Source: Cryomorphaceae bacterium BACL29 MAG-121220-bin8
GTDB taxonomy: Bacteria > Bacteroidota > Bacteroidia > Flavobacteriales > Flavobacteriaceae
Assembly (NCBI GenBank): GCA_905181705.1
Contig: CAJIYP010000003.1
Coordinates: 62,001-126,000, forward strand
Direction of reading: 5' to 3'
Length of the DNA stretch: 64,000 nt
Shown: piece after piece, positions 23,527 through 41,186 of the stretch
Layout of the letters: the number at the start of each line of letters is the position of its first letter
Position numbering within the stretch: the stretch's first letter is position 1
Program-made: the position numbers and the translations under genes
The notes under the pieces: generated by a model
Database searches by the model: none
Told to the model about the DNA's origin: nothing
What the model saw: only the letters and a program-made list of their open reading frames with translations

Positions 23527-23600
23527 GGTCGCGTAGCTCAGCTGGATAGAGCATCTGCCTTCTAAGCAGACGGTCACACGTTCGAATCGTGTCGCGATCA
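23527..23600 (+). tRNA. tRNA-Arg (anticodon TCT)
   Basis: All four arms can be drawn: acceptor GGTCGCG/CGCGATC with discriminator A, anticodon stem TCTGC/GCAGA around the loop CTTCTAA (anticodon TCT, reads AGA), and T-arm ACACG-TTCGAAT-CGTGT. It is 74 bases long and CCA is not encoded. It marks the left border of a 2.1 kb island whose right border is a displaced tRNA-Arg 3' half. Confidence 0.95.
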
Positions 23601-23611
23601 CCAGAGTAAAT

Positions 23612-23636
23612 AGGGGGTTTTTAACCCCTTTTTCTT
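23612..23636 (+). terminator. Terminator after tRNA-Arg
   Basis: GGGGTT/AACCCC hairpin with a short T loop followed by a T-run, 12 bases after the tRNA. Confidence 0.75.
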
Positions 23637-23739
23637 TTTACCATTTGCACAAAATTCGCACAATAAACATTGAGATAGAGGGCTTTTAGAATAGAATATG
23701 AAAAAAGTAATTCTACTATTACTGCAATTATACTATTTC

Positions 23740-24003
23740 TTATTGCACCTTACAATCTCCGCCAAAAGCGTTAAGTATTGTGGCATAAGAATCTAATATT
23801 TCTCTCGTAATAGTAACTGTTTCTCCAGTATCTGGATCTTCACCAACTTCTCCAACACAAAGATTTTTTATGTCTTCAGACGTAATATCAATGAGATCAT
23901 TTCCATCAAGTGAATTACAAACCAAGCATTCTTTTGCTTGATCATCATCAGAAGAACAAGACAATAAAAGAACAGACAATAATAATAGACTTAAATATTT
24001 CAT
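23740..24003 (-). CDS. Small cysteine-containing lipoprotein of unknown function
   Basis: The 87-residue protein has a clear lipoprotein signal (LLLSVLLLSCSSDDD, lipidated Cys at 16). The mature part is short and acidic with four further cysteines (ECLVC, LC, DC), a pattern common in small flavobacterial lipoproteins without assigned function. It lies inside the tRNA-Arg island, and its base composition resembles the host rather than the GC-rich neighbour. Confidence 0.7.
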   Translation of the reverse strand: MKYLSLLLLSVLLLSCSSDDDQAKECLVCNSLDGNDLIDITSEDIKNLCVGEVGEDPDTGETVTITREILDSYATILNAFGGDCKVQ

Positions 24004-24140
24004 AATTATATTATTAGTTTATAAGTAAGTCACAAAAATAATAAACATTCACGTAGAAAGGTTAGTTTTTAACAATTATCTGGCAACCGTAATTTTTTCA
24101 TTTATTAATCTTTCCCACTTTCCTACCAGTTCTAACCTTG

Positions 24141-25439
24141 TTAATTCAACTTGATTAAACAAGTATCACTATCCCTGGTCAGTATAAAAGAAGTCTGCGT
24201 CAATTTCCCTTTGAGGGAAACGATGATGTCATATTCACCAAAAAATGCAGAGGTGGTAAAACTGCCATTTTTGTCTGTCTTTCCATGTTCTTTGGTCCAC
24301 CATTCATTGAATACCAATTCACGATAGACTGTGCCGTTTGGTTTTTCAGACCAATCTTCTCTGAACAATGCGGTAGGCGGACGGAAAATGTTACCTTCCC
24401 AGAATCCCCAAAACTGGATTCCAACAACAGATGGATGGCTGAAACAAAGAGTCATGAAGTTTCGTGTAAATTCTCCTTGTTTGTCTTCATCACTTCCATC
24501 GGCAGTAAATTCGGTGATTCGAATGGGAAGTCCCCGTGAGGCGATTTTATCGAGTTTTCCTTCAACTGTCTGAATGTCCGGATAACCTCGGAAATGGCTT
24601 TGCAGTCCAATTCCATCAAGTAAGCCAGATGCATTTACATGATCTATCCATTTAAAATATTTCTGAATTTGGGTTGAGTCATTTTCCGGGGAGGAAAGGA
24701 TTCCTGATTCGTTAAGATATAGATTTCCCTCAGGCAGATTTTTTCGTGTTTGTTCAAACCAAGCAATGGATTCCTCAATACCGAAAACCTGATTCCCCTG
24801 TGCCTGACCTGCTCCTTCGGCCTCACGACCAGGGCGAATTCTACCTACCGGATGATTCACTACGTCCCATTCATCGATGGCAAACTTTGTTTGAGTTGCT
24901 TTGTCATCAATTGCGCCCATGACCGCTCTCACCAGGGCACCTTTTCCTTCTTCATCATGAATTTTGATAAAGGCTTTGGAGGAGTTACGCAGGCCATTAC
25001 CTGTCATGAGATGTCCCCTGATCTTGATCCTGTTTGAATGAGTCCAATTAAGAGCCTTTATCGTAGCGTCTGGAGCCATATTTTCACCAAAATCGCCACT
25101 CCATGCTTTTACCTTTAAAGCGTTTTCGAAGGTGCCAGAATTAAAAAGTTCGAGTATTTTTTGATTATAAGCTTCCTGTTGCGGATCATTGATATAGGCA
25201 ACTTTGAAGGCGGAACCAAACTCGAATGCGTGACGTGTCATCAATACCTGGATATCTGCATTTTTAACAGGCTGCCCTTTGCTATCCACGACCTTCACTT
25301 GTAAAGGTGCTTTACGTACCTCTTCAATTCTTTTGTTGGCAGAAGTTAGCCACTCCGAGTAAGTTTGAGATTGGCCGGGAGTAGATAATCCCAGCATAAG
25401 TATGGAAATAAAACAGAAGATGGATTTAGTATTTTTCAT
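24141..25439 (-). CDS. GH10-like endo-1,4-beta-xylanase family protein, GC-rich (acquired)
   Basis: The 432-residue exported protein has a signal peptide (~1-24), a small Ig/carboxypeptidase-regulatory-like segment (VKVVDSKGQPVKNADIQV, ~48-65), and then a GH10 barrel. Visible marks are FGSAF (~74-78), ENALK (105-109), WDVVNHP (191-197), GIGLQSHF (277-283), the nucleophile segment ITEF (Glu310) and GIQFWGFWE. At the usual acid/base position (W-D-V-x-N-E) this protein has His196. Sampled lines are about 40-58% GC against about 30% in neighbours, so it is clearly transferred DNA. It lies in an island bounded by tRNA-Arg and a displaced tRNA tail. The role is xylan or other beta-glycan cleavage, or a binding protein if the His change abolishes catalysis. 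Confidence 0.85.
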   Translation of the reverse strand: MKNTKSIFCFISILMLGLSTPGQSQTYSEWLTSANKRIEEVRKAPLQVKVVDSKGQPVKNADIQVLMTRHAFEFGSAFKVAYINDPQQEAYNQKILELFNSGTFENALKVKAWSGDFGENMAPDATIKALNWTHSNRIKIRGHLMTGNGLRNSSKAFIKIHDEEGKGALVRAVMGAIDDKATQTKFAIDEWDVVNHPVGRIRPGREAEGAGQAQGNQVFGIEESIAWFEQTRKNLPEGNLYLNESGILSSPENDSTQIQKYFKWIDHVNASGLLDGIGLQSHFRGYPDIQTVEGKLDKIASRGLPIRITEFTADGSDEDKQGEFTRNFMTLCFSHPSVVGIQFWGFWEGNIFRPPTALFREDWSEKPNGTVYRELVFNEWWTKEHGKTDKNGSFTTSAFFGEYDIIVSLKGKLTQTSFILTRDSDTCLIKLN

Positions 25440-25512
25440 GTGGTGCGTTTTAATATTTGCGTCTCATTTAAAATTATAGATTTAAGACAAAAAGATTTGG
25501 TAAAGGTTTATT

Positions 25513-25632
25513 TTATAAAATTTCAAGAATGTTTTGAGGTGGATTTGCACCACCTTTTGAATGGGGAATAATGTGGTCAAATTCTAAATTTTCATTGCTT
25601 CCACATTCCACACATTTACCCTCGTCTCTTCG
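25513..25632 (-). pseudogene. HNH endonuclease remnant
   Basis: Read on the minus strand this gives [21 protein letters not shown] followed by IPHSKGGAN, the core of an HNH nuclease (first CxxC zinc pair, DH). It is preceded in frame by a stop and ends after PPQNILEIL, so the second CxxC half and the N-terminus are missing. It is a fragment adjoining the right boundary of the tRNA-Arg island. Confidence 0.75.
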
Positions 25633-25671
25633 TCATGATAATTAAAGTTTGTTTTTTGTGCAACCTACCGA

Positions 25672-25713
25672 CTTCTAAGCAGACGGTCAGAGGTTCGAAT
25701 CCTCTCGCGATCA
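25672..25713 (+). repeat. Displaced 3' half of tRNA-Arg (island right boundary)
   Basis: It matches the tRNA-Arg from the anticodon loop to the discriminator base: 18 identical bases, then T-arm AGAGG-TTCGAAT-CCTCT, then CGCGATCA. The T-stem differs from that of the intact gene but is itself fully paired. The 5' half (acceptor 5' strand, D-arm) is absent, so it is not a functional tRNA. Confidence 0.85.
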
Positions 25714-25717
25714 CACT

Positions 25718-25747
25718 AAACCTTATCTTAAATAATAGGGTTTTTTT
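25718..25747 (+). terminator. Terminator following the displaced tRNA-Arg tail
   Basis: AAACCTTAT/ATAGGGTTT hairpin (one G-T pair) followed by a T-run. It is probably the original terminator of the tRNA gene before island insertion. Confidence 0.7.
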
Positions 25748-25789
25748 ATTAATTATTAAATAACATAAATAACTTTCTATATTTAGGTT

Positions 25790-27809
25790 ATGAAAAAAGA
25801 ATATTTAATTACTTTATTTAGGGGCTCAGTTTTTGGTTACTTAACATTTTTATTCATTTTTTTTAATTCCTGTTCATCTAATGTTGAGCAGAAAGACGAT
25901 TTTAGTTTTTTTTCTGAACAATTCGCAGACATTAAAATCTTGAGATATCAAGTACCTGGATTTAACGAACTAAACCTAAGTCAAAAAAAACTTGTTTATT
26001 ATTTAACTCAAGCTGGTTTAGAGGGAAGGGATATTATGTATGATCAAAACTACAGATATAATGTTTCTATAAGAACTGCATTAGAAAAAGTATATGAGAA
26101 TTATAAAGGGGATAAATCTTTAGATAATTGGAAATCGTTTGAAACCTATCTAAAGAAAATTTGGTTTTCTAACGGAATACATCATCACTATTCAAATGAT
26201 AAACATGATCCAAGTTTTTCATCTAATTATTTAGAAAAATTACTAAAAGAAACTGACACAAACTTAGAAAAAGGAGCTTTTGATGTTATTTTTAATAACC
26301 AGGATTCTAAAAAAGTAAATTTAGATGCAAGTAAAGGATTAATTAAAGGTTCTGCGGTTAATTTCTATGGACCAGATGTCACAGTTGAAGATGTAGATTA
26401 TTATTACAGTGAAATAAAAAAAGTTCCTAACTCTAAAAAACCTATTTCTTTAGGTTTAAACTCTAAACTTGTAAAAGAAGACGGAAAACTTATAGAGAAA
26501 GTTTGGAAACTCAATGGATTGTACAGTAATGAAATTGAAAAAATCATTTACTGGTTGAATAAGGCTGTAGAATTCGCTGAAAATGATAAACAAAAAAAAG
26601 GATTAGAGCTTTTAATAAAATATTACGAAACTGGTGATTTAAATATTTGGGATGAATATAACGTAGCATGGGTAGAAACTATTGAGGGGGATGTGGACTA
26701 TATAAATGGTTTTATAGAAGTTTATAACGATCCTAAAGGATATAGAGGTTCTTATGAATCTGTAGTTCAAATAAAAGATTTTGAAATGAGCAAAAAAATG
26801 GATGCGGTTTCAAATAACGCACAGTGGTTTGAAGATAATTCACCAATTTTAAAAGAACATAAAAAAGAAACTGTTGTGGGTATTTCTTATAATACTGTAA
26901 ATGTAGCAGGAGAAGCTGGAGATGCTTCCCCTTCAACTCCAATTGGAATAAATCTACCTAATGCAAATTGGATTAGAGCCGAACATGGCTCGAAATCAAT
27001 TTCTCTTGGAAATATTCTTTATGCATACGGTAATGCTGGAAGCAGCGGAAGATTAAACGAATTTGCTTTTTCTGAAAAAGAAATAGAACTTGAAAAAAAA
27101 TATGGAAAAGATGCTGGAAGTTTACACACTGCCCTTCATGAAGTTATAGGACATGCAAGTGGTCAAATTAATAATGGTATAGGTACTCCAAAGGAGACCT
27201 TGAAAAGCTACGCTTCAGCATTGGAAGAAGCCAGAGCTGATTTAGTTGGCCTATATTTTATTTCAGACATTAAACTCGAAGAAATTGGAATTTCACCCTC
27301 ATCTGTCAGATATGGGAAGAGCAAGTTATGATGGATATATTAGAAATGGTTTAATAACTCAACTTATTAGAATTAAACCAGGTAATGATATTGAAGAATC
27401 TCATATGAGAAATCGTCAATTAGTTTCTTCTTGGGCATACGAAATGGGACAAAAAGATAACGTAATTGAAAAAGTAAAAAAAGATAATAAAACATTTTAT
27501 GTGATTAATGATTACAAAAAATTAAGAATTTTATTTGGAGAACTTTTAAAAGAAATTCAAAGAATTAAATCTGAGGGCGATTATGAAGCAGGTAAATACC
27601 TTATTGAAAATTACGGAGTAAAAGTGGATCAAGATTTACATAAAGAGGTTTTAGAGAGAAACAAAAAATTTACTTCTGCACCTTACAGTGGTTTTATAAA
27701 TCCTGAACTTGTTTTGGTAAAAAATGATGATGGAGAAATTACTGACGTTAAAGTAACTCAGCCAGAAAGTTTTTCTTCCCAGATGTTATATTACTCAAAG
27801 ACTTATTAG
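25790..27809 (+). pseudogene. Dipeptidyl peptidase III-like (M49) metallopeptidase, frame broken near 27308
   Basis: The first frame (from 25790) encodes a lipoprotein-type signal (FFNSCSS, Cys ~29) and the M49 zinc motif HEVIGH (450-455) with the second motif EEARAD (479-484). It then ends prematurely at 27331. The protein continues in the next frame with DMGRASYDGYIRNGLITQL and typical M49 C-terminal sequence to 27809. Removing one A near 27308 joins the two into about 673 residues, the family's normal length. The intact form would release dipeptides from peptides and act as a lipoprotein. It may be a true pseudogene or a single-base sequence error. Confidence 0.85.
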
Positions 27810-28128
27810 GTTGATTGGTTCATGAAATTTGAAATCAATTTATGGAAATGATGAACACCCTGCTATCTTGTGGGTAAGAATCTTCCTGGTTTATAAAAAG
27901 ATAATCTTAATCCATTGTGAACATTTTCTACGACAAACTCATCTTCTTCCTCAACTTTTTGGAGTTGATTTCCTACCCCACTATTTAATTTAGTTTCATC
28001 TTATACGTATGATCTAAAAGAAACTCTTGTCAAAGAACTTGAAATTGGTTTTACAATATTTAAATATAATCCCCAAGGATAAAAATTAAACATCATGTTG
28101 GGAAAAAACCCTAATAATAATAAGTAAG
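27806..28128 (-). pseudogene. Remnant of Rieske-type aromatic ring-hydroxylating oxygenase alpha subunit (C-terminus)
   Basis: Minus-strand translation gives GFFPNMMFNFYPWGLYLN (about 28105-28052), then VKPISSSLTRVSFRSYV, a stop, DETKLNSGVGNQLQKVE, then GLRLSFYKPGRFLPTR, a stop, and QGVHHFHKLI. This is the characteristic C-terminal catalytic tail of the Rieske aromatic/choline-monooxygenase-like family. Two in-frame stops and the missing N-terminal two thirds (no Rieske CxH/CxxH centre nearby) mark it as decayed. It ends overlapping the stop of the convergent M49 gene by 4 bases. Nothing else is seen between 27810 and 28160. Confidence 0.8.
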
Positions 28129-28159
28129 TATACCCTTTTATTATATTGTGAAAATAAAA

Positions 28160-28182
28160 AAGCCCTTTTAAAAAAAGGGCTT
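28160..28182 (-). terminator. Bidirectional terminator after the 28207-28878 lipoprotein gene
   Basis: AAGCCCTTTT/AAAAGGGCTT hairpin with A-runs on the left and T-rich sequence on the right. On the minus strand it lies 25 bases after the stop of the lipoprotein gene. Confidence 0.75.
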
Positions 28183-28206
28183 GATTTTTATAAATAATGA
28201 TAATTA

Positions 28207-28878
28207 TTATTTTGATCCTTGATAATCAAAATAACCTTCAACAGGAATCATTAAATGATCGTATCCAGTTCCTTTAAACATTACATAAGGAGCACCACTC
28301 ATAAAATCAGTAGTTTGTCCCTCTAGTGTTGATGGATCTTTTGGCATTAACATTAAATGCGCTCCAGATTCTATCCACTGACCTTCAGCTGCATCTTCTT
28401 TATTCATGACCATTTGTTTTGAATTATCTTCACCCATATCACCATGTAACATCCAGGCCCACCCGTCAGAATCCATTTCAGGCTTAGTTTGGCTCATATA
28501 AGCAGTTACCCATTTAAAAGATTGAGCATCACCAACCATAGCCATTGCCTCATGGGCATCCTTCCAGCCATTTTCTGGATCCGCAGGTCCTCTTGGGTTT
28601 GCTGGCATGGCTGTCCAACCATTAGTTCCTTCTCTCAACATGGTTCCGTCTGCATCCATTACCGTACAATTAGCGGCAATAAAAGATGGAGCAGCTGTAC
28701 TATATGCCCATATTTTCCATTCAACTGAGTTATGTGGACCATCTGGCTCACCATTTGTGTTTAATGGACTCATACGAAAACCTTCTGCTTCTAGTGTAGA
28801 AGCCGATACAGGCGCGGGAGCAGTTGTATTACAACTTATAAGTAAAGATGTAACAAATAATAAAAGTATTTTTTTCAT
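28207..28878 (-). CDS. Conserved lipoprotein of unknown function
   Basis: The 223-residue protein has a lipoprotein signal (LLLFVTSLLISCN, Cys16). The mature part contains the run AAPSFIAANCTVMDADG, then LREGTNGWTAMP and a C-terminal YVMFKGTGYDHLMIPVEG. I recognise this pattern from uncharacterised proteins of marine bacteria but know no function. Many Met and Trp residues and a His-rich segment (MLHGDMGED) are visible. It lies beside the metal-handling genes on the same strand but with its own terminator. Confidence 0.75.
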   Translation of the reverse strand: MKKILLLFVTSLLISCNTTAPAPVSASTLEAEGFRMSPLNTNGEPDGPHNSVEWKIWAYSTAAPSFIAANCTVMDADGTMLREGTNGWTAMPANPRGPADPENGWKDAHEAMAMVGDAQSFKWVTAYMSQTKPEMDSDGWAWMLHGDMGEDNSKQMVMNKEDAAEGQWIESGAHLMLMPKDPSTLEGQTTDFMSGAPYVMFKGTGYDHLMIPVEGYFDYQGSK

Positions 28879-28905
28879 AAGATTTTTTTTATAATTTAAT
28901 AAAAA

Positions 28906-29328
28906 TTAATTTGATTTAACGTTCATTTTAGGATCATACTTACAACATAAAGGAAGATTTTCGTATGAATCCATATTGTTATCAACTAACTCTGTACCAT
29001 AACCAGAATTAGCTATAGCTTCATGTATGCTCATTAAATCTACAATTTGAGAATCATAAACCAAGCTAACTTGTTTTGATTGCTTATCCCAATCTGCTTT
29101 AAGAACTCCATCTAAAGATTTCGCAGCAGTTTCAATAGTTTTTTTACACATTCCACAGTTACCTTTTACTCCAAAACTGGATTCAGTACCCATAAGTTCA
29201 ACAATTTCTTCAGGGTTAGGCACTAAGTTTTCATCTGAATCATGATTTGTAGCCGTATTAGCTAAAAAAAATCCAATTGCGAGACCTATTAATAAACCAC
29301 CTACTGTATATATTAAATTTTTTTTCAT
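28906..29328 (-). CDS. Membrane-anchored heavy-metal-associated (HMA) domain protein
   Basis: The 140-residue protein has one N-terminal membrane helix (~5-25) and then an HMA ferredoxin-like domain with the metal site GNCGMC (C58, C61). The C-terminal tail LPLCCKYDP carries a CC pair and is shared in kind with the neighbouring protein (LPECCYY). It is oriented to bind a soft metal, probably Cu(I), outside the cytoplasm. It is separated by 5 bases from the second HMA gene and belongs to the operon with the TonB receptor. Confidence 0.85.
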   Translation of the reverse strand: MKKNLIYTVGGLLIGLAIGFFLANTATNHDSDENLVPNPEEIVELMGTESSFGVKGNCGMCKKTIETAAKSLDGVLKADWDKQSKQVSLVYDSQIVDLMSIHEAIANSGYGTELVDNNMDSYENLPLCCKYDPKMNVKSN

Positions 29329-29333
29329 ATTTA

Positions 29334-29681
29334 TTAATGAATTGATAAGGTTTTATAGTAACAACATTCTGGTAGACTTTGATAAACTTCATCTTTTGCT
29401 TTGTATTTATCTGTATCGTGACCCAATGCTGCAATATTTTTTTTTATACTATCAAGTTTAGTTTTTCTTGAATTATAAATTATAGATATATTATTTGAAT
29501 TTATATTCCAATTAGCATACTTAACCCCTTTAATTTTGATTACACCCTCATCTATTCTAGATTTACACATATCACACACTCCACTAACTTCAAAAGAAAC
29601 CTTTGCAGATTTAGAATCTTGATCCTGAAAAGAAAAAAGATAAGAACTAGTAAAAAAAAGGATTATAAATATATATTTCAT
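29334..29681 (-). CDS. Exported HMA-domain protein (periplasmic metal carrier)
   Basis: The 115-residue protein has a signal peptide (~1-18) and an HMA domain with SGVCDMC (C36, C39). It ends LPECCYYKTLSIH, with a CC pair as in its neighbour, and is small enough to be a metallochaperone. It lies 12 bases downstream of the TonB-dependent receptor gene, suggesting it receives or delivers the metal handled by that receptor. The metal is inferred (copper most likely), not shown. Confidence 0.83.
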   Translation of the reverse strand: MKYIFIILFFTSSYLFSFQDQDSKSAKVSFEVSGVCDMCKSRIDEGVIKIKGVKYANWNINSNNISIIYNSRKTKLDSIKKNIAALGHDTDKYKAKDEVYQSLPECCYYKTLSIH

Positions 29682-29693
29682 AATAATATAAAG

Positions 29694-31928: not shown

Positions 31929-31996
31929 TTTGCAAATAAAAACATTTTAAATCTATTGTAATTTATAAAATTTTGAATTAGAGTTGCAAAATTTAA

Positions 31997-33603: not shown

Positions 33604-33670
33604 TATCAGTTTTCTATACAAATATCGTGCTAAATACATATACTTTACTAATTTTATAAAAAAATTTATT

Positions 33671-34207
33671 ATGAAGAAAATATTCCTGTTGCCTATTTTA
33701 TTTTTATTTGTATTAGGATGTAGTATCCCAAATATGGTTGTAGTAGAATTAGAATCAAAAAGTTCTACAAACGTAAATGGAAATGTAGTCTTTACAGAAA
33801 TGAATCAAGTTGTTACTATGATAGCTGAAATTAAAAATTTACAACCAGGAGAACATGCGATTCATCTTCATGAGAAATCAGATTGCTCATCTGATGATGG
33901 CAAATCAACTGGAGGTCACTGGAACCCTACTTTAACAAGTCACGGAAAATGGGGAGATGATAATGGATTTCACATTGGAGATATAGGAAATTTTGTAGCA
34001 GATGAAAATGGGACTGGAAACATTACTTTTTCAACAGATCTATGGTGCTTAAACTGTGATGATAAAAACAAAAATATTATCGGTAAAGCCATTATTGTTC
34101 ACCAAGGAATAGACGATTTCACTTCTCAACCATCTGGAGCAGCTGGATCTAGAATAACTTGCGGTGGAATTATTTCCGATAATGCCATATTAAATTCAGA
34201 AAAATAA
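33671..34207 (+). CDS. sodC: Cu/Zn superoxide dismutase lipoprotein
   Basis: The 178-residue protein has a lipobox (FLFVLGC, Cys17). Copper/zinc ligands are readable: HAIHLHE (H65, H67), GGHWNP (H83), H91, FHIGD (H101, D104) and the C-terminal VHQGIDDF. The conserved disulfide cysteines C72 and ITCGGI and the end signature SGAAGSRI are present. It dismutates superoxide in the periplasm. The nearby oxyR and trxB genes and the copper-handling cluster make the setting coherent. Confidence 0.93.
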   Translation: MKKIFLLPILFLFVLGCSIPNMVVVELESKSSTNVNGNVVFTEMNQVVTMIAEIKNLQPGEHAIHLHEKSDCSSDDGKSTGGHWNPTLTSHGKWGDDNGFHIGDIGNFVADENGTGNITFSTDLWCLNCDDKNKNIIGKAIIVHQGIDDFTSQPSGAAGSRITCGGIISDNAILNSEK

Positions 34208-35005
34208 CTACCACTCTCTTTTTTTATTATTCTTTTCGATTTCAGAGATTTCTTTTTGAGATAAAACTTTCAAAAATGATGGGTGTTGTTCTATAGCTAT
34301 TTCTATCTTTTCAACAATACTTTCTACTGATTCATTATCATAATCTATGTCAAGTGGATTTTTAATTTCCATAGACTGCAAAATGTTTCTTTTCTTAATT
34401 CTAATTCCTTTTTTATCAAAGGATCTTCTAAATCCATCAATTACTACAGGAACAACAACAGGCTTATATTTTTTTATTATGTGAGCTGTACCCTTTCTAA
34501 TAGGCTTGAATGGTGTAGTAGTTCCTTGTGGAAAAGTAATTACCCATCCATCATTTAGAGCAGTTCCAATTTTACTAATATCGCTCATTTTCACCTGTCT
34601 ATTTATTTCTTCTCCTTTTGATCGCCAAGTTCTGTCTATAGAAACAGATCCAACATATGCCAATATTCTCGGAAATATTCCATCTTTCATAGTCTCTTTT
34701 GCAGCTATAAAATAAATATTCAGTTTAGGTTGCCACAAATACATCACGTTTTTAATAGAATCATCTCTTCCGCTTAAACTTGCATTAAAAACATGAAACA
34801 TTGCAAATACATCTGCAAAATAAGTTTGATGATTTGAAACAAATAAAACATTGTTATCTGGAAGTGATTTAATTACTTCAGATCCTTCAATCTTTAATTT
34901 ATTAAATCTATTGAATCTTTGATGAGACAAAAACCCTAAAATCCTTATTAACCACTTCTTAATTAATAAGTTATGGCCAAATGGATTTCTTTTAAATATA
35001 TTCAC
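34208..35005 (-). CDS. Lysophospholipid acyltransferase (PlsC-like)
   Basis: The 265-residue protein shows the acyltransferase blocks: VSNHQTYFAD (H59..D65), SIDRTW and FPQGTTTPFKPIRKGTAHI. In the catalytic motif five residues separate His and Asp (HQTYFAD) instead of the usual four, which I believe is common to a Bacteroidota subgroup. It should acylate a lysophospholipid or similar acceptor at the inner membrane. Its stop abuts that of the convergent sodC. Confidence 0.82.
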   Translation of the reverse strand: MNIFKRNPFGHNLLIKKWLIRILGFLSHQRFNRFNKLKIEGSEVIKSLPDNNVLFVSNHQTYFADVFAMFHVFNASLSGRDDSIKNVMYLWQPKLNIYFIAAKETMKDGIFPRILAYVGSVSIDRTWRSKGEEINRQVKMSDISKIGTALNDGWVITFPQGTTTPFKPIRKGTAHIIKKYKPVVVPVVIDGFRRSFDKKGIRIKKRNILQSMEIKNPLDIDYDNESVESIVEKIEIAIEQHPSFLKVLSQKEISEIEKNNKKREW

Positions 35006-35032
35006 TTTATTAAATTATGAAATGTAAATGTA

Positions 35033-35671
35033 TTAAGAATTAACTATATCATTATATAAAGAAATAAATTCGCTAATCATCATAGCAGTAGCTCCCCAAA
35101 CCACATGACCTTCAATAATATAACTAGGCACTCTGATTTCTTTATTTTGAATAGAAATTAAAGAAAGTTGTGTTTTCATTTTTAACAAATCCTTTAACAA
35201 GGGTTTTATAATTAATTTAACCTCTTTAGAATCTGGATTAAAACAAGGTTTGGCATTGTAAAGAGCTAAAAATGGTTGAACATTAAAATTACTCGGTGGA
35301 ATGTAAATTTCTGATAAGGGTCTAATAATGTTAATAGAAGATTCATCTAGCCCTAATTCTTCAACAGTTTCTCTAGTTGCAGTATGTTTTAAATTTCTGT
35401 CTGAGTTATCCATTTTTCCCCCAGGAAAACTAATTTGATTTGAATGTACCCCATTATATATATTTCTTAAAATTAGTGTCATTCTGGTTTCTTCATTTTT
35501 ATCTTCGTAAAACAACATGATTACTGCTGCAAGTTTAGGATTCTTTACAATATAACCATCTAAATACTGCTTAACTCTGTTTGGAGGTGCTAATTTTAAA
35601 AGAGATTTATTTCCTGGAAGATTAAAATCATTTATTTTTAATAAAATATTTTTAAAATTTAAAAAATGCAT
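35033..35671 (-). CDS. Nudix hydrolase, CoA pyrophosphatase-like
   Basis: The 212-residue protein has a Nudix box (GGKMDNSDRNLKHTATRET then VEELG, residues 84-107) preceded by the NQISFPGGK stretch that marks the CoA diphosphatase (NudL) group. It probably cleaves CoA or related nucleotide diphosphates. Its ATG (35669-35671) overlaps the ATG of the divergent cyclophilin gene within the palindrome ATGCAT. Confidence 0.85.
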   Translation of the reverse strand: MHFLNFKNILLKINDFNLPGNKSLLKLAPPNRVKQYLDGYIVKNPKLAAVIMLFYEDKNEETRMTLILRNIYNGVHSNQISFPGGKMDNSDRNLKHTATRETVEELGLDESSINIIRPLSEIYIPPSNFNVQPFLALYNAKPCFNPDSKEVKLIIKPLLKDLLKMKTQLSLISIQNKEIRVPSYIIEGHVVWGATAMMISEFISLYNDIVNS

Positions 35672-36349
35672 GTGAAAAAAATATTGTTGGTTATAATACT
35701 TTTAAACTTTCTTAATTGTAAAGATATTAGTAATAAACCTTCAAAAAAAATAGTAGTAAAAAAGATTGAAAAAACTAAAATCAAAAAAGAAAAAGAAATC
35801 TTTTTATTAAATGATAAAAATGCAATACCATTTTTCTTTGATTATGAAAAACACAATAAAGAAAGTCTTGTTAAAATAATAACAGATTATGGAGATATAG
35901 ACATTAAATTATTTGAAAATACACCATATCATAGAGCAAATTTTATTTATTTAACTAAAAAAAATTATTTCGATGGTGAGTTTTTTCATAGGGTGGTAAA
36001 AGATTTCATTATTCAAGGTGGGAATTCTGATAACCGAAATACATCTAAAAAAAGACGATCAATTGGAAGATATTTACTGCCACCAGACACAAAAAAAGGA
36101 TATAAACATCACAGAGGAATTGTATCTATGCCTAGTAGTGAAATTGAAAACCCACATAAACTAGCTTCACCATATGAGTTTTTTATAGTTCAAAAAAAAG
36201 AAGGTGCGTATCACTTAGATGGAAATTATACTGCTTTTGGGAAAGTGATAAAAGGAATGAATGTTGTTGATATTATTGCAAATTTAGAAACAGACAAAAG
36301 AGAATGGCCTTTAGATAATGTAAGATTTAAAACAATTTTAATTAAATAA
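35666..36349 (+). CDS. Cyclophilin-type peptidyl-prolyl isomerase lipoprotein
   Basis: The 227-residue protein has a lipoprotein signal (KILLVIILLNFLNC, Cys ~18) and a lysine-rich linker. The cyclophilin domain (~75-227) has FHRVVKDFIIQGG, GIVSMPS, FFIVQ and TAFGKVIKGMNVVD. It catalyses proline isomerisation, here tethered to a membrane. The ATG at 35666 overlaps the divergent Nudix start codon. GTG at 35672 is an alternative that removes the overlap and keeps the signal peptide. Confidence 0.88.
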   Translation: MHVKKILLVIILLNFLNCKDISNKPSKKIVVKKIEKTKIKKEKEIFLLNDKNAIPFFFDYEKHNKESLVKIITDYGDIDIKLFENTPYHRANFIYLTKKNYFDGEFFHRVVKDFIIQGGNSDNRNTSKKRRSIGRYLLPPDTKKGYKHHRGIVSMPSSEIENPHKLASPYEFFIVQKKEGAYHLDGNYTAFGKVIKGMNVVDIIANLETDKREWPLDNVRFKTILIK

Positions 36350-36429
36350 AAACTAATTATTAGTTATTCTTATTTATTTACTATATTTAATAGGAATAAT
36401 TTATATTAATAACTATAATAGAATAAGAA

Positions 36430-37383
36430 ATGACAATAGTTCAATTAAAATACGCTATAGCGGTAGCTGAACACAGAAACTTTACCATTGCTGCAGAAAA
36501 ATGTTTTGTAACTCAGCCAACCTTGAGTATGCAAATTCAAAAATTAGAAGGAGAGTTAGAGATAACTATTTTTGACAGAAGTAAAAAACCTATTGGAATG
36601 ACTGAAGTTGGAACAAAAATTATTCAACAATGTAAAAAAATAGTTAGTGAATCTGAAAAAATGCAGGATGTTGTTGATAAAGACAGAGGAGTTATTGGTG
36701 GTAATTTTAAATTAGGAATTGTTCCAACTATAATGCCCACACTCTTACCAATTTTTTTAGACGAATTAGTTAGTAAATATCCAATGCTTAAAGTTTCTTT
36801 TTTTGAGTTACCCACTTTTGAATTAATTGACAAATTAAAAAATAATGGTTTGGACTTAATAATAGCATCGACTCCTCTGGAAGATGACGAATTAATTGAA
36901 AAACCCATTTACTATGAACCGTTTGTAGCATACCTTCCTGAAAAAAATAAAAATTTTGGGAAAAAAGAAATTATTCCTAAAGACCTTTATTCTAACGATC
37001 TACTTCTTTTGAGAGACGGACATTGTTTTAGGAACAGTATTGAAAACTTATGCTTTGATTGTCACGAATACAAAGGAAAATTTGAATTAAAAAGCGGAAG
37101 TTTTGAAACTTTAATAAATTTAGCTGATCAAGGGTTAGGTATCACATTCTTACCATACTTACATACATTAAGATTAAATAGTAATCAAAAAAAGATGCTA
37201 CATAGTTTCAAAAACCCCAAACCTGCAAGAGAAGTTAGTTTAGTATATCATAAAAATGAAAATAAAATTCACATAATTAATGAAATAAAAGATCTTTTAA
37301 ATAAACTAACAAAAAGAAAGCTTCAGTTCAATGATGTAAATATTATAAGTCCAATAAAAAATAGAGAAGCAATAAGAGTATAA
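36430..37383 (+). CDS. oxyR: Hydrogen peroxide-sensing LysR-type regulator OxyR
   Basis: The 317-residue LysR-family protein has an N-terminal winged helix (FTIAAEKCFVTQPTLSMQIQ, ~18-37) and a LysR substrate domain. The redox pair is visible as RDGHCF..NLC, Cys199 and Cys208, exactly the positions of the E. coli pair. An additional CHEYKG follows. It activates peroxide defence genes when oxidised. Its neighbours sodC and trxB fit an oxidative-stress region. No operator was identified. Confidence 0.92.
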   Translation: MTIVQLKYAIAVAEHRNFTIAAEKCFVTQPTLSMQIQKLEGELEITIFDRSKKPIGMTEVGTKIIQQCKKIVSESEKMQDVVDKDRGVIGGNFKLGIVPTIMPTLLPIFLDELVSKYPMLKVSFFELPTFELIDKLKNNGLDLIIASTPLEDDELIEKPIYYEPFVAYLPEKNKNFGKKEIIPKDLYSNDLLLLRDGHCFRNSIENLCFDCHEYKGKFELKSGSFETLINLADQGLGITFLPYLHTLRLNSNQKKMLHSFKNPKPAREVSLVYHKNENKIHIINEIKDLLNKLTKRKLQFNDVNIISPIKNREAIRV

Positions 37384-37388
37384 AAAAA

Positions 37389-37574
37389 TTATATTAAAAC
37401 AGCTTCAAGGCCTGGCTTATTTAAAATGAATTTTTTTACCCATATAATTAGCTCATTATATTCATAAGGCAAAAGTACCTTAGAGGCCTTAAATAATTCT
37501 TTTTTAAAAAGAATTGGATCAAAACTCACTTTCTTTAAAACATCTTTAGTGTAATTATAAATAGATCTGGACAT
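37389..37574 (-). CDS. Small conserved flavobacterial protein of unknown function
   Basis: The 61-residue protein opens MSRSIYNYTKDVLKKVSFDP and continues with a LLPYEYNELIIWVKKF segment. I recognise it as a small conserved Flavobacteriia protein. It is helical, without signal or membrane segment, and there is no known function. It converges with oxyR, with 5 bases between stops. Confidence 0.7.
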   Translation of the reverse strand: MSRSIYNYTKDVLKKVSFDPILFKKELFKASKVLLPYEYNELIIWVKKFILNKPGLEAVLI

Positions 37575-37639
37575 TTTTAGATATTAATGTGAATTTATAA
37601 AAAATTCTGAATTCTAAATATTTAAGAAATGTTAAGGTT

Positions 37640-38092
37640 TTACTTTTTTACCTTTAAGGTCCATTGAAAACTAAACTTAGAAACCACATCTCCTGAGGAA
37701 TCTATTCCTGATGAATTAAGCCATATAGTCTGGGGTTCTCCTGATGAAATAGCTAAATTAATGGACTCTCTAATTTCAGAACCTTGATCACAACTAAAAA
37801 GAATTTTACCTGTTGCTTTTTTTGAAAAATTAGCTTTATTATTTAAAACTAACATAGAAAATTTTCTTTTACTTATTTCAATTTCATTTGATAATAGCAA
37901 GCCTGTAGATAATTCGCCTGCCATTCCTTGAACAGCCCAAAACATAGATTTAAAAGGATTTTGATTAATCCATCTATGCTTAACACCAATCAAACAAGAT
38001 TTTTCATTTACAGACTTAACTCTAATACCACACCACCAAACTGATGGAAGCTTAAAAAAAGTGTAAATATTATATTGAAATGGACTTTTCAC
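37640..38092 (-). CDS. DUF4442 hotdog-fold thioesterase-like protein
   Basis: The 150-residue protein has the DUF4442 layout (LPSVWWCGIRV, NPFKSMFWAVQGMAGELSTG), a hotdog-fold group related to acyl-CoA thioesterases. The substrate is unknown. It overlaps the stop of trxB by 4 bases, so the two are cotranscribed. Confidence 0.78.
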   Translation of the reverse strand: MKSPFQYNIYTFFKLPSVWWCGIRVKSVNEKSCLIGVKHRWINQNPFKSMFWAVQGMAGELSTGLLLSNEIEISKRKFSMLVLNNKANFSKKATGKILFSCDQGSEIRESINLAISSGEPQTIWLNSSGIDSSGDVVSKFSFQWTLKVKK

Positions 38093-39030
38093 TCTATATC
38101 AGCTAAATAACGTTCTGCATCTAAAGCTGCCATACATCCTGTTCCTGCTGCAGTTACTGCTTGACGATAATCTTTATCCTGGACATCACCTGAAGCAAAA
38201 ACACCAGGATAGTTAGTGTCAGTAGTTTTTCCTTTTGTAATAATATAACCGGCATCGTCCATCTCTATTTGACCCTTAAAAATATCAGTATTGGGTTTAT
38301 GACCAATAGCTATAAAAAGACCAGTTACTTTTACATCATCTTTTTCATTTGTCTTACTATTCACTATTCTAACTCCTTCCACTACATCTTTCCCTAAAAC
38401 CTCCTCAATTTCAGAAAAATATCTAACTTCAATATTCTCTCTTGATTCAACTCTATGCTGCATCGCTTTTGAAGCTCTCATTTGTCCTTTCCTTACTATC
38501 ATAGTTACTTTAGTACATAAATTAGCTAAATAAGTTGCTTCTTCAGCAGCCGTATCTCCTCCACCTACTATTGCTACATCTTGACCTTTATAAAAGAATC
38601 CATCACAAACAGCACAAGCCGAAACACCTCCTCCTTTTAGTCTTTCTTCTGATGGGATTCCTAAATATTTTGCGGTAGCACCAGTTGATATTATAATACT
38701 TTCTGCCTCAATTTCTTTACCATTATCAACAGTAACCATGTGTATTCCTCCCTTATTTTTACTTAGAGTGACCTTAGTTACTAATCCAATCCTAACTTCA
38801 GTTCCAAATCTTTCCGCTTGTTTTTGTAATTCAACCATCATTGTAGGACCATCTACTCCATGTGGATAACCTGGAAAATTATCAACTTCTGTGGTGGTGG
38901 TTAATTGTCCTCCAGGTTCCATTCCTGTGTAAAGAACTGGTTTTAAATCTGCTCTTGCAGCGTAGATTGCTGCTGTATAACCCGCTGGTCCTGAACCAAT
39001 AATTAAAGTTTTAATTCTTTCTATTGACAT
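38089..39030 (-). CDS. trxB: Thioredoxin reductase
   Basis: The 313-residue flavoenzyme has an FAD loop IIGSGPAGYTA (~10-20), the redox-active CAVC (C139, C142), an NADPH loop VGGGDTAAEEA (~156-166) and the C-terminal FASGDVQDKDYRQAVTAAG. It keeps thioredoxin reduced with NADPH. It is followed by a DUF4442 gene with a 4-base overlap. About 150 bases separate its start from the tRNA-Pro gene. Confidence 0.95.
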   Translation of the reverse strand: MSIERIKTLIIGSGPAGYTAAIYAARADLKPVLYTGMEPGGQLTTTTEVDNFPGYPHGVDGPTMMVELQKQAERFGTEVRIGLVTKVTLSKNKGGIHMVTVDNGKEIEAESIIISTGATAKYLGIPSEERLKGGGVSACAVCDGFFYKGQDVAIVGGGDTAAEEATYLANLCTKVTMIVRKGQMRASKAMQHRVESRENIEVRYFSEIEEVLGKDVVEGVRIVNSKTNEKDDVKVTGLFIAIGHKPNTDIFKGQIEMDDAGYIITKGKTTDTNYPGVFASGDVQDKDYRQAVTAAGTGCMAALDAERYLADIE

Positions 39031-39135
39031 ATATATTTATAATGACCATAAATTTAAAATATTTGATCACTTTCTTTTGAAAAAACTATAAAAAGTTATC
39101 ATCATAAATTATTAAAATATAATTATCATTTATTG

Positions 39136-39166
39136 TTTGATGATTTTTGAAATAATCCTATATTTG
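39136..39166 (+). promoter_or_regulatory. Promoter of tRNA-Pro (Bacteroidota type)
   Basis: TTTG at 39136-39139 and TATATTTG at 39159-39166, 19 bases apart, match the TTTG / TAnnTTTG pair of Bacteroidota sigma-A promoters. The tRNA begins 13 bases later. Confidence 0.75.
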
Positions 39167-39178
39167 CGCGGCTCACCT

Positions 39179-39253
39179 CGGGGTGTAGCGTAGCCCGGTT
39201 ATCGCGCCGCGTTTGGGACGCGGAGGTCGCAGGTTCGAATCCTGCCACCCCGA
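39179..39253 (+). tRNA. tRNA-Pro (anticodon TGG)
   Basis: Acceptor CGGGGTG/CACCCCG with discriminator A, anticodon stem CCGCG/CGCGG around TTTGGGA (anticodon TGG, reads CCA), T-arm GCAGG-TTCGAAT-CCTGC. It is 75 bases long and CCA is not encoded. It forms the left border of a sulfatase cassette. Confidence 0.95.
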
Positions 39254-39255
39254 CT

Positions 39256-39293
39256 AAACCTCAATAAATTTTTAAATTTGTTGAGGTTTTTTT
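39256..39293 (+). terminator. Terminator after tRNA-Pro, overlapping the sulfatase 3' end
   Basis: A 16-base stem (AAACCTCAATAAATTT with its near complement) followed by a T-run. The last sulfatase codons and its stop (39272-39274) lie in this hairpin. Confidence 0.8.
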
Positions 39294-41023
39294 AAAACTA
39301 ATAATCTAAAATCAATTGATTTTTTACCAATTTTTTTTATTGTTTTAACTTTCAATCTTGAAAAGCCTTTTTTAAAATTTATTTCACCAATGTTAACACT
39401 AACAAATTCTTTAGTGTAAGATTCTATTCTTTTTATAACGTCTTTTTTTGAACCTTCTAATTCAGGATCATAAAAAGTTTTAAGTTCTTTATAAATTATT
39501 TGATTTTCATATTCAACAGAAATTTCAGTGCCAACACTATTTTTAGGTAAAGTGTAGTATAACTCTACATTGTTTAATCCTGATTCTAGAACATTAATAT
39601 CCCAATAAATATAATCTTCTTCATTCTTCCAATTTTCAATAAACGAACAATTAGCATGGATTGATGATCGTTTTAATTTTCCAGTAATTTCTGCATCTCT
39701 AGCTGGAAGGTGAGTGTAAATAGATTTATTGTCGTTAACAGTAAATGGTCTTCTTTTAATTGAATCTTTATATTTATCAACAATATTTTTTTTCCAAAAA
39801 CTCTTTGCATCTTTCAAACTTTTAAAGTCGCTTAAAAATTTATTATTTACTGGTAATTCTTGTTTGTGATCTAATTTTAAGTCAAATAAATTATCTTGAT
39901 TATCTAGTATAAACCTATTGTTTCTGACACTAATTTTATTGTTCCAATATGAAAATATTTTCCTTTTGTTGTCTTTCAATTTTTGATCCTGTAAATATTT
40001 ATTAAAACTTAGACCATCAAAATCTATTTTAGAACTGTTATTGGTTAGTTCAATTAAGCTGGGGAATATATCTAATACACTTGATATCTGAGCTACTTTA
40101 GTTCCAGAGGGAATCTTATTAGGCCACTGAATGAAAAAAGGGACCCTAACCCCACCCTCATTAGTACTGCCTTTTCTTTCTTTTAAATCATTATTCCAAC
40201 GGTTACCATTAGGGCCATTATCACTGAAATATATAATAATAGTATTGTCATACAACTTATATTTTTTTAGTGAATCTATTACCTTACCTACGTTATAATC
40301 TAAGTTTTCGACCATAGCCAGAGCAGCCTGTGTTTTTTTGATATTTTCTTTGTCTGAATACCTTCCTTTTAACACTATGTTTTTATCTTTTAAATAAGAC
40401 TTCGGAACCTGCATTGGAGAGTGAGGAGTGTTGTAGGATATATATGTAAAAAAAGGTTTTTCTGAATTTTTAATAAATGATATAGCTTTATTGGTAATAT
40501 CATCTGAAATATACCCTTTTCCTCTAGTTATTTCACCATTATTTTCTAAAACAGGATCATAATAATTTCCCCAATGGCCAGAGGTAAATCCATAAAACTC
40601 ATCAAATCCACGAGAATTTGGGTGATAGGGAGGCTGTGAGCCATTATGCCATTTTCCAAAAACACCTGTTCTGTAATCCTTTTCTTTAAAATAATCAGAA
40701 ATTAAAATATGATCTAAGTTCATTCGCTCATAGCCTCTAGTGACTCCATTGACTCCAGATCTGATAAAGAATTTTCCTGTTAATAGCTCGGCTCTTGTTG
40801 GTGAGCAAACTGGACTTACATAAAACCTGTCAAATGCTGCACCATTGTTGGCAATGCCATCAATATTAGGAGTGTTTAAATTACTATTTCCGTTAAAACT
40901 TAAATCCCCCCAACCTTGATCATCAGACAAAAAGATTAAAATATTTGGTTTATTCTGGTCCTTATTGCTACATCCAAATAAACATATTATAAAAAAAAAC
41001 TTTATAAGATTGTTAAGACACAT
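39272..41023 (-). CDS. Sulfatase (formylglycine type) lipoprotein
   Basis: The 583-residue protein has a lipobox (FIICLFGC, Cys18). The S1 sulfatase core has DDQGWGD metal ligands (~34-40) and the maturation motif C73-S-P-T-R77, in which Cys is converted to formylglycine. Further marks are GKWHNG, ISYNTPHSPMQVP and YFSDNGPNG. The C-terminal ~150 residues form a beta-rich extension as in arylsulfatases. It hydrolyses sulfate esters, most likely of algal polysaccharides given the host type (inference). The last codons run into the tRNA-Pro terminator. It is the only gene of the cassette. Confidence 0.92.
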   Translation of the reverse strand: MCLNNLIKFFFIICLFGCSNKDQNKPNILIFLSDDQGWGDLSFNGNSNLNTPNIDGIANNGAAFDRFYVSPVCSPTRAELLTGKFFIRSGVNGVTRGYERMNLDHILISDYFKEKDYRTGVFGKWHNGSQPPYHPNSRGFDEFYGFTSGHWGNYYDPVLENNGEITRGKGYISDDITNKAISFIKNSEKPFFTYISYNTPHSPMQVPKSYLKDKNIVLKGRYSDKENIKKTQAALAMVENLDYNVGKVIDSLKKYKLYDNTIIIYFSDNGPNGNRWNNDLKERKGSTNEGGVRVPFFIQWPNKIPSGTKVAQISSVLDIFPSLIELTNNSSKIDFDGLSFNKYLQDQKLKDNKRKIFSYWNNKISVRNNRFILDNQDNLFDLKLDHKQELPVNNKFLSDFKSLKDAKSFWKKNIVDKYKDSIKRRPFTVNDNKSIYTHLPARDAEITGKLKRSSIHANCSFIENWKNEEDYIYWDINVLESGLNNVELYYTLPKNSVGTEISVEYENQIIYKELKTFYDPELEGSKKDVIKRIESYTKEFVSVNIGEINFKKGFSRLKVKTIKKIGKKSIDFRLLVLKKPQQI

Positions 41024-41120
41024 ATAAATTTAAGTTAGTTGTTAAAAATAAAAAAAATATCCCATATAAAATCAGTTAGTTATTTTCTTTAAAAACTCAA
41101 CCATCTCATACGTGTTGTTT

Positions 41121-41145
41121 GCAGGTTCGAATCCTTCCACCCCGA
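41121..41145 (+). repeat. Displaced 3' tail of tRNA-Pro (cassette right boundary)
   Basis: Identical to the tRNA-Pro T-arm and acceptor 3' strand except one base (CCTTC for CCTGC), which breaks a T-stem pair. The rest of the tRNA is absent. Similarity extends 5 bases past the tRNA end. Confidence 0.83.
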
Positions 41146-41147
41146 CT

Positions 41148-41186
41148 AAAACCTCTTTAAATATTTGATTTAGAGAGGTTTTTTAT
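41148..41186 (+). terminator. Terminator following the displaced tRNA-Pro tail
   Basis: AAAACCTCT/AGAGGTTTT stem extended by TTAAAT/ATTTAG, followed by a T-run. It is probably the original tRNA-Pro terminator. Confidence 0.8.

Follow-up and report, generated by a model that had tools for sequence, protein, structure and literature searches.

Each of the only two tRNA genes that ARAGORN finds in the window (the whole stretch of DNA analysed, 64 kb), tRNA-Arg(TCT) at 23527-23603 and tRNA-Pro(TGG) at 39179-39254, is followed some 2 kb downstream by a partial copy of its own 3' end, with an enzyme gene pointing back at the tRNA in between, and the question raised by this locus is whether these units are mobile. 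An earlier note on the sequence had read both as one-gene, integrase-free elements moved in trans; the two layouts and their positions proved right to within a few bases, and the enzymes, a GH10-like protein (PF00331) and a sulfatase (PF00884), are indeed both encoded on the minus strand. We consider it probable that the first (unit 1) is an integrase-free integrative cassette at tRNA-Arg(TCT), and that the second (unit 2) is a tRNA-Pro neighbourhood with a long-resident sulfatase and a relic tail. The features of unit 1 and its flanks are as follows.

22044-23429, plus strand: NmrA/epimerase-like gene, left flank (Pfam, synteny; same neighbour in G013, G012 and G017)
23527-23603, plus strand: intact tRNA-Arg(TCT), attL side (ARAGORN; T stem ACACG/CGTGT)
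23604-23636, plus strand: new terminator 3' of the intact tRNA-Arg, common, among the congeneric copies examined, to G011 and G013
23644-23662, plus strand: candidate arm-site-like direct repeat TTTGCACAAAATTCGCACA, found near tyrosine recombinases in IMG/VR
23740-24003, minus strand: 87-aa lipoprotein-like ORF, cargo (no Pfam match)
24141-25439, minus strand: GH10 endo-xylanase-like gene, cargo judged to be foreign (PF00331)
25513-25611, minus strand: HNH endonuclease fragment, 32-aa ORF (PF01844, E 2.2e-6)
25654-25663, minus strand: inverted copy of the arm-like 10-mer, found elsewhere in the window only at 23645
25672-25714, plus strand: displaced 3' half of tRNA-Arg, anticodon loop to acceptor, attR side
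25715-25751, plus strand: displaced terminator of the endogenous type (terminator comparison with congeners)
25790-27331, plus strand: peptidase M49 gene, right flank, reading frame broken near its 3' end

Unit 1 spans positions 23527-25714 (about 2.1 kb). Its displaced tail is 43 nt long, begins with the first anticodon-loop base and differs from the intact gene by four mismatches, every one of them in the T stem, which reads ACACG/CGTGT in the intact gene and AGAGG/CCTCT in the displaced copy. Because this difference is paired, the tail is no simple duplicate but represents another allele; the displaced tails described in the earlier note are both present. A terminator-like hairpin and T run lies directly 3' of the displaced tail in both units. 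In 18 of the 19 other congeneric tRNA-Arg copies, the displaced terminator of unit 1 is a better fit than the left one. The left terminator fits those of G011 and G013, whose sequences depart beyond it and lead into other cargo; the left end of unit 1 is shared by G011, where the stretch that was fetched showed no tail. The polarity of the T stem alone is not decisive, because G009, G019 and G020 combine the ACACG form with ordinary terminators.

The cargo of unit 1 is more than the single gene first reported, as it also includes the lipoprotein-like ORF and the HNH fragment. The GH10 identity is well founded (E 2.8e-27), and the gene is oriented toward tRNA-Arg. Judged from composition and database matches, it is foreign to the host genome: its GC is 0.42 and its GC3 0.38, the GC3 of six other genes of the region being 0.16-0.21; its product is 71% identical to a protein of an Opitutaceae MAG; and no ortholog was found among 21 congeners. 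Phages gave a single match to the GH10 protein, at 25%, and the lipoprotein-like ORF matches phrog_28771 weakly (E 0.0032) over its first 35 residues only; otherwise the HNH fragment, which adjoins the tail, is the one candidate phage gene piece in the unit. No tyrosine recombinase was detected within the interval, in line with the earlier note, and none of the three ORFs is an integration or transfer gene; those identified belong to families other than serine recombinases, and the remaining one has no Pfam match. The tyrosine-recombinase result for this and the other intervals rests on wider models, as our home-made profile missed a true integrase in locus L410.

The same tRNA-Arg site is variably occupied in the genus. 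In G017 and G012 a GH20 gene stands instead in the same setting between the NmrA and M49 genes, enclosed by two complete tRNA-Arg genes, and in G008 and G010 the site is nearly empty, with gaps of 46 and 81 bases between the tRNA and the next ORF; an exact empty site, with nothing but the tRNA between the NmrA and M49 genes, was not found. The earlier note had proposed looking for a tyrosine recombinase in other cassettes, and integrase-bearing elements with the same core are present in G547 (about 12 kb) and G046 (about 14 kb, flanked on either side by a complete tRNA copy), as well as in phage contigs some 36 kb long. Thirteen IMG/VR stretches contain the core, and in five of them a modelled tyrosine recombinase starts 127-175 bases from the core start. 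The core search pattern itself began at the anticodon-loop boundary; in tail-only phage copies, the letters before this boundary cease to match the tRNA after 2-5 bases. One contig, 3300037566_000074, holds the tRNA and an integrase in one stretch and a displaced tail in another. No more than a few bases separate the start of the unit 1 tail from the att core found in phages that use tRNA-Arg(TCT).

Candidate arm sites were sought at the ends of unit 1. The 10-mer TTGCACAAAA has two copies in the 64 kb, which are inverted and lie one at each cassette end; in a chance control, 74 of 2000 random pairs of places 2 kb apart had a rare 10-mer in common. Six of the eight IMG/VR stretches with the arm-like motif have a tyrosine recombinase at most 300 bases away, although four of these six positives carry closely similar integrases, the sample is only eight stretches, and the same test is passed by 25% of positions drawn at random from these stretches. 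The reversed control of the first motif hit one stretch of the viral contigs, without a recombinase by the first profile. Across 22 genomes of the genus, TTTGCACAAAATTYGCACA with at most one mismatch gave three matches, all directly 3' of tRNA genes, and its reversed pattern gave none; TGTGTACCATTNTGTGTACC with at most three mismatches gave five matches versus 13 for its reversed control, and matched exactly only at the tRNA-Met of the genome under study. The looser GTGTACCANNNTGTGTACCA was found in 66 viral stretches with a recombinase within 1 kb in only eight, versus 4.4% at random positions, and gives weak support to the arm-site link. Two stray copies of TGTGTACCA in the same genome both lie within coding genes. 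In viral contigs nothing matched a pattern for the tRNA end that included the CCAGA left end, and the left end of unit 1 had no match among INPHARED phages. It matched 21 of 199 family genomes, its own included; most of the others span the tRNA end only, two span other short parts and one, in G141, is at 72% over query positions 3-86, and G011 and G013 are absent from the matches listed.

The course of events that we infer for unit 1 begins with entry of the cassette into tRNA-Arg(TCT) by site-specific recombination of the tyrosine-recombinase type. The 3' half of the tRNA would have been exchanged, such that the incoming copy restored a complete tRNA and brought a new terminator, while the old half and the old terminator would have been pushed 2.1 kb away. 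The cassette would retain putative cis sites, namely the core and the arm-like repeats at both ends, and the recombinase may have been supplied in trans by some phage or island making use of this core.

Displaced tails exceed chance expectation. In the genome under study, where 31 of 33 tRNAs have at least 2 kb of downstream sequence, a sense-strand downstream tail score of at least 12 was reached at four of the 33 (Arg 31, Pro 23, Thr-GGT 17 and Met-CAT 12), versus zero for antisense, zero for reversed, one for complemented-tail and zero for upstream controls, the last covering only about 3 kb for many tRNAs; chance matching was rejected on this comparison. The same survey found no tails at the 27 tRNAs surveyed in G016 (34 listed), and one tail at 36 tRNAs, with one control match, in G011. 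Tail-bounded intervals in which no integrase was detected lie at tRNA-Met and tRNA-Thr of the genome under study, at tRNA-Phe of G011 and at tRNA-Arg of G013, G257 and G039, the last with an efflux pump, and in G059, of the same order, tailed cassettes with shared ends and different cargo form a tandem array. No recombinase was detected in 14 of the 17 repeat-bounded intervals examined, which are a non-random sample. The recurrence of cargo-only tailed units as a class, claimed in the earlier note, is supported by unit 1 and these intervals; this support does not extend to unit 2. The features of unit 2 are as follows.

38089-39030, minus strand: TrxB-like reductase gene, left flank of the Pro site (Pfam, synteny)
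39179-39254, plus strand: intact tRNA-Pro(TGG) (ARAGORN)
39272-41023, minus strand: sulfatase gene (PF00884; at the same locus in five congeners)
41121-41146, plus strand: 26-nt relic of the tRNA-Pro(TGG) 3' end, one mismatch (tail survey)
41147-41186, plus strand: terminator 3' of the Pro tail (terminator-like hairpin and T run)
41222-42082, plus strand: Bax1-I family gene, right flank of the Pro site (Pfam, synteny)

Unit 2 (39179-41146) has the same outward layout as unit 1, with the sulfatase (E 4.3e-58) oriented toward tRNA-Pro, its tail letters are of the TGG type, and tRNA-Pro sites without cargo occur in G011 and G006, all of which would suit a mobile cassette like unit 1. However, the sulfatase lies between tRNA-Pro(TGG) and tRNA-Pro(GGG), or beside the latter, in G013, G012, G016, G018 and G008, the TGG tail is absent from the locus in all five, and the order of divergence is the same as that of the neighbouring TrxB. 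Moreover, the ends of unit 2 share no common repeat of nine or more bases, and the sulfatase stop codon is just 17 bases from tRNA-Pro. We therefore reject a fresh cassette, hold it quite improbable that unit 2 is mobile in the manner of unit 1, and find recent mobility unsupported, the evidence for unit 2 as a cassette being weak; residence in five congeners comes close to the outcome that the earlier note had named as counting against its claim. The neighbourhood is variable within the genus and the sulfatase is a long resident. tRNA-Pro(GGG), which precedes the Bax1-I family gene in several congeners, is not among the tRNAs found in the 87%-complete genome under study. The tail, whose mismatch disrupts a T-stem pair, is on its own the relic of an old event.

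For unit 1, the main rival to movement in trans is loss of the integrase in place, by which a prophage or island would have shrunk through deletion of its integrase and other genes to a CIME (cis-mobilizable element, as defined in PMC5704250) that never moved in trans. We give this account a substantial, if minority, chance, as it explains a single unit equally well: the HNH fragment adjoins the tail, the larger integrase-bearing elements and phages sit at the same tRNA-Arg, and CIMEs are an outcome described in that source. It fits less well with arm-like sites at both ends and cargo alone between them, with the scarcity of recombinases in the (non-randomly chosen) repeat-bounded intervals, and with G059, where successive cassettes share their ends and not their cargo, a pattern hard to obtain by repeated independent decay. 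The tRNA genes could also be mere conserved anchors for homologous recombination that swaps neighbouring genes with no site-specific recombinase involved. The complete tRNA-Arg copies around GH20 in G017 and G012 accord with such swapping, as do eight of the ten further loci retrieved because they hold additional copies of the core, which are complete tRNA-Pro/tRNA-Arg duplications (scanned for recombinases with the home-made profile only), and two contigs of one MAG, G003, which are 99.3% identical over 7355 bases and differ from the tRNA 3' end on by a photolyase-like gene, with no tail seen. Nevertheless, a half-tRNA tail with an anticodon-loop boundary and the observed terminator pattern is the expected product of integrase-type exchange, and integrase-carrying phages show nearly the same boundary, which makes anchoring an unlikely explanation of unit 1. 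We prefer to read unit 1 as an integrative cassette, for which the evidence is good.

More tentatively, and with rather more doubt than confidence, we propose that flavobacteria-like bacteria keep minimal non-autonomous integrase substrates, namely cassettes of one to a few genes that have half a tRNA as their core and arm sites at either end, on which phage or island integrases would act in trans, which could build tandem arrays of the G059 type and which might bring in single carbohydrate-active genes from other phyla. If so, such genes would enter streamlined genomes via these cassettes, and many short unexplained exchanges beside tRNA genes would become readable from displaced tails. Unit 1 would offer bacteria with small genomes a concrete way to acquire catabolic genes one at a time on elements that encode no integrase themselves; the pieces now identified are the core, the arm-like sites, candidate helper integrases and congener sites that are nearly empty or filled differently. 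A literature search, in which subscription journals were thinly covered, found no paper on cargo-only tRNA-Arg cassettes of flavobacteria.

Among known systems, temperate phages at tRNA-Arg(TCT) (e.g. IMG/VR 3300037566_000074 and 3300020426_000002) share with unit 1 a terminator-like sequence carried in and the core, which runs to the acceptor from close to the anticodon loop, whereas their contigs are about 36 kb long and have an integrase next to the core. By site and gene content unit 1 resembles a CIME as outlined in PMC5704250: the tRNA, the displaced 43-nt half and the terminator pattern would represent retained attL and attR at a tRNA 3' end, integration and transfer genes are lacking, and related genomes and phages include autonomous elements directed at the same target. 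It differs in being only about 2 kb long, with no accretion partner seen at the locus, and descent from an ICE or IME is a candidate origin. The Dehalococcoides ssrA islands, 15 of which lack an integration module according to PMC3146451, likewise have direct repeats of an RNA-gene 3' end, tandem arrangement and catabolic cargo, but by that account they target tmRNA, use a serine-type recombinase and belong to another phylum, while the target of unit 1 is tRNA-Arg. The additive flexible genomic island of 'Ca. Methylopumilus', also a streamlined aquatic bacterium, is marked by repeated occurrences of the final 20 bases of a tRNA gene, in that case tRNA-Lys, and single-gene cassettes and arm sites are not among the features described for it in PMC10872708. 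Tycheposons, as described in the same paper, are 4-200 kb long, border on a tRNA and carry a tyrosine recombinase; the likeness drawn in the earlier note holds for the logic of cargo bounded by a tRNA gene, but not for size (2.1 kb) or for a recombinase within the element. Finally, integron cassette arrays and CALINs are defined by attC sites between cassettes; the repeats of the present units are tRNA halves, and if our broader proposal is true, tandem arrays whose members have the same ends but unrelated cargo, as in G059, would be a tRNA-based counterpart of integron cassette arrays.

The window holds two tRNA genes, and at both the same arrangement is seen: a minus-strand enzyme gene, its family confirmed by Pfam, points back to the tRNA and is followed by a copy of that tRNA's own 3' end (the tail) and a terminator. 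The layout described in the earlier note is therefore present at both sites, which comprise the following features.

23527-23603, tRNA-Arg(TCT), unit 1
24141-25439, minus strand, GH10 gene, unit 1
25672-25714, tRNA-Arg tail, unit 1
39179-39254, tRNA-Pro(TGG), unit 2
39272-41023, minus strand, sulfatase gene, unit 2
41121-41146, tRNA-Pro tail, unit 2

Unit 1 is not the single-gene cassette it had been taken for, as an 87-aa lipoprotein-like ORF and an HNH fragment also lie inside it. The source genome is 1.84 Mb in size, low in GC and flavobacteria-like; in a survey of it, 4 of 33 tRNAs (Arg, Pro, Thr-GGT and Met-CAT) are followed by a sense tail with a score of at least 12, and four controls gave 0, 0, 1 and 0. 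In the scan of relatives proposed earlier, congener G011 has one such tail among 36 tRNAs (Phe, 43-nt perfect; controls 0, 1, 0, 0), and G016 has none among 27 of its 34 listed tRNAs, seven contig-edge or weak entries being omitted (controls 0).

The unit 1 tail begins with the anticodon loop's first base, and the T stem differs in paired fashion between the intact and displaced tRNA-Arg copies. The left terminator, which starts CCAGA, is common to G011 and G013, and beyond it the sequences of the three genomes are wholly different. When the 21 congeneric tRNA-Arg copies, which are not independent, were compared after removal of those from G011 and G013, the displaced-type terminator was the closer one in 18 of 19 (exception, locus L113). 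Such a polarity would be expected had a new tRNA-Arg 3' half and terminator entered and displaced the old ones. Two observations complicate this polarity: three congeners combine the intact copy's ACACG T stem with an ordinary terminator, and G011 shares the left end, yet no tail was found there.

Mapping of the tRNA-Arg neighbourhoods in the fetched congeners revealed varied contents. The next ORF lies only 46 bases away in G008 and 81 in G010; G007 has a 391-aa ORF, G013 a BD-FAE-type hydrolase with a ~20-nt tail, and G011 several genes, one chitinase-like (named by eye). In G017 and G012, where NmrA-like and peptidase M49 genes form the flanks as they do in the window, two complete tRNA-Arg genes enclose a GH20 gene (Pfam for G017; the G012 unit is split over two contigs). 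Within one MAG, G003, two contigs (L098, L116) are 99.3% identical over 7355 bases downstream; from the 3' end of tRNA-Arg on, a photolyase-like gene (named by eye) sets them apart, which may reflect mixed strains. The empty sites sought on the earlier note's suggestion were found only in near-empty form, in G008 and G010; no exact empty NmrA-tRNA-M49 site was found among the fetched congeners. Several side observations concern these neighbourhoods. In another genus of the family, G141:C11:20702-20791 (L211) matches the whole unit 1 left end at 72%. An opposite-strand tRNA-Ala(GGC)-like call lies inside the G013 cassette near the tail (L108 4424-4498). The window's M49 frame (25790-27809) is broken near its 3' end into a 513-aa ORF and a 187-aa ORF in another frame, by either a mutation or a sequencing error; in G012 and G017 it is one frame of ~660 aa. 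In G008 (L121 4443-5945) the sulfatase and tRNA-Pro(GGG) have a relative of this gene between them, as if genes were exchanged between Arg and Pro tRNA sites. Elsewhere in the window, a 2483-aa open reading frame occupies 1355-8806 on the minus strand.

Candidate helpers are found among phages, as IMG/VR contigs reveal that they use the unit 1 core (the tRNA-Arg 3' half, from anticodon loop to acceptor). Five of 13 core-bearing stretches have a model-detected tyrosine recombinase starting 127-175 bases from the core start, where the left boundary was set by the search pattern and tail-only phage copies match the tRNA 2-5 bases further. In contig 3300037566_000074 one stretch carries the tRNA and an integrase, and a second stretch carries the displaced tail. 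Of the 13 stretches, at least three are tRNA arrays of large phages and were rejected as att sites. The source genome encodes three tyrosine recombinases; two are of kinds found in most congeners and presumably Xer-like, and the third (338 aa) lies beside surface-polysaccharide-type genes (judged by eye).

A candidate cis site, TTTGCACAAAATTCGCACA, lies directly 3' of the unit 1 left terminator. Allowing one mismatch, it has three matches in 22 genomes of the genus, each right after a tRNA gene (Arg in the source genome, Asn in G011 and G017), and its reversed pattern has none. In IMG/VR, a tyrosine recombinase lies within 300 bases of the motif in 6 of 8 stretches, four of the six having closely similar integrases; for positions drawn at random from these stretches the figure is 25%. 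Two copies of the 10-mer TTGCACAAAA are present in the window, one at 23645 and an inverted one at 25654; random pairs had a rare 10-mer in common in 74 of 2000 draws. No rare end-shared repeat of at least 9 bases was found in the Pro, Thr, G013-Arg or G011-Phe units. The cis-site case is stronger for the source genome's ~2.3 kb tRNA-Met(CAT) unit (G000:C3 ~808661-811080, L146 9662-12081), as 6 of the 8 TGTGTACCA copies in ~429 kb of fetched sequence lie at its ends, three per end. The tail of this unit is 12 nt long, its two ends carry nearly identical terminators, and its four ORFs have no Pfam, PHROG or PADLOC match; no recombinase was detected in it. Two other loci of this genome were noted. 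tRNA-Thr(GGT) has a degraded tail 3.9 kb downstream (L134 4820-8822), the interval holding a DUF2911 gene, a weak FkbM methyltransferase match and small ORFs. tRNA-Asp, in reverse orientation, is followed by sulfatase-like and GH20-like genes (named by eye) and no tail (L149 3130-6912), a cargo resembling that of the units at another tRNA.

Intervals of this type recur. Among 17 repeat-bounded intervals (tRNA and tail, two tails, or two complete tRNAs), which were picked for a repeat already seen and do not include the G059 intervals at contig edges, the G012 unit that is split, or eight complete-tRNA duplication loci, a scan of ORFs of at least 80 aa detected no recombinase in 14. The remaining three hold an integrase inside the interval (G547 and G046 at Arg, G058 at Pro), so some cassettes do encode a tyrosine recombinase, a point the earlier note had raised. 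The core is present in at least 176 of 395 genomes of the order (an order-wide count); of ten loci with two nearby copies that were examined among the matches listed, eight are complete tRNA duplications and two have tails (G257, G547). In G059, from another family of the same order, eight tRNA-Arg half copies form a tandem array over three contigs (L193, L194, L195); the T arm of one is degraded, and contig ends truncate two of them. In seven of the eight, the ~20 bases that precede the core are shared, and a direct repeat, TTGCAAA, lies ~65-90 bases upstream of the core. The genes between the copies differ, several encoding proteins with type IX secretion tail domains, and both tyrosine recombinase genes of this genome are on contigs other than the array's.

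The unit 1 cargo stands apart in composition, the GH10 gene having a GC of 0.42 and GC3 of 0.38 (six other genes here, GC3 0.16-0.21). A search of 60 genomes matched only the source genome, G003 and G022, the latter two partially at 25-27% identity, and revealed no ortholog in 21 congeners. A short-peptide scan of named genomes, which detects close relatives only, returned two loci; the better, in an Opitutaceae MAG, is 71% identical over its best segment (residues 29-432). If the window is flavobacterial, this is a different phylum; the direction of GH10 transfer is one that we infer.

Unit 2 tells a different story from the mobile cassette first proposed. The sulfatase lies between tRNA-Pro TGG and GGG in G013, G012, G016 and G018 and beside GGG in G008, with no TGG tail near it in any of the five. 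Its identity to the window copy is 86% (G013), 82% (G012), 75% (G008), 74% (G016) and 65% (G018), and TrxB identity declines in the same order (90, 88, 87, 87 and 84%). G020 has a different sulfatase-like gene (32%) at tRNA-Pro. TGG lies 68 and 146 bases from GGG in G019 and G010, and, where GGG is lacking, 230 and 209 bases from the right-flank gene Bax1 in G011 and G006. The window has its TGG-type tail and terminator at the position held by GGG in relatives, and tRNA-Pro(GGG) is absent from the tRNAs found in the source genome. We read unit 2 as a variable locus at which an old event has left a relic, and reject a recent cassette.

For unit 1, the best supported reading is site-specific entry into tRNA-Arg through a tyrosine recombinase that is not among the unit's own genes and would be supplied from outside; the unit may have moved as a cargo-only substrate or may have shrunk in place. 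The likeness to tycheposons drawn previously is one of logic only, as unit 1 differs from them in both size and recombinase. Its closest kinds are CIMEs (PMC5704250), those ssrA islands of Dehalococcoides that lack an integrase (PMC3146451) and additive islands marked by repeats of a tRNA tail (PMC10872708), and hitchers of site-specific systems are the subject of a review (PMC11389934).
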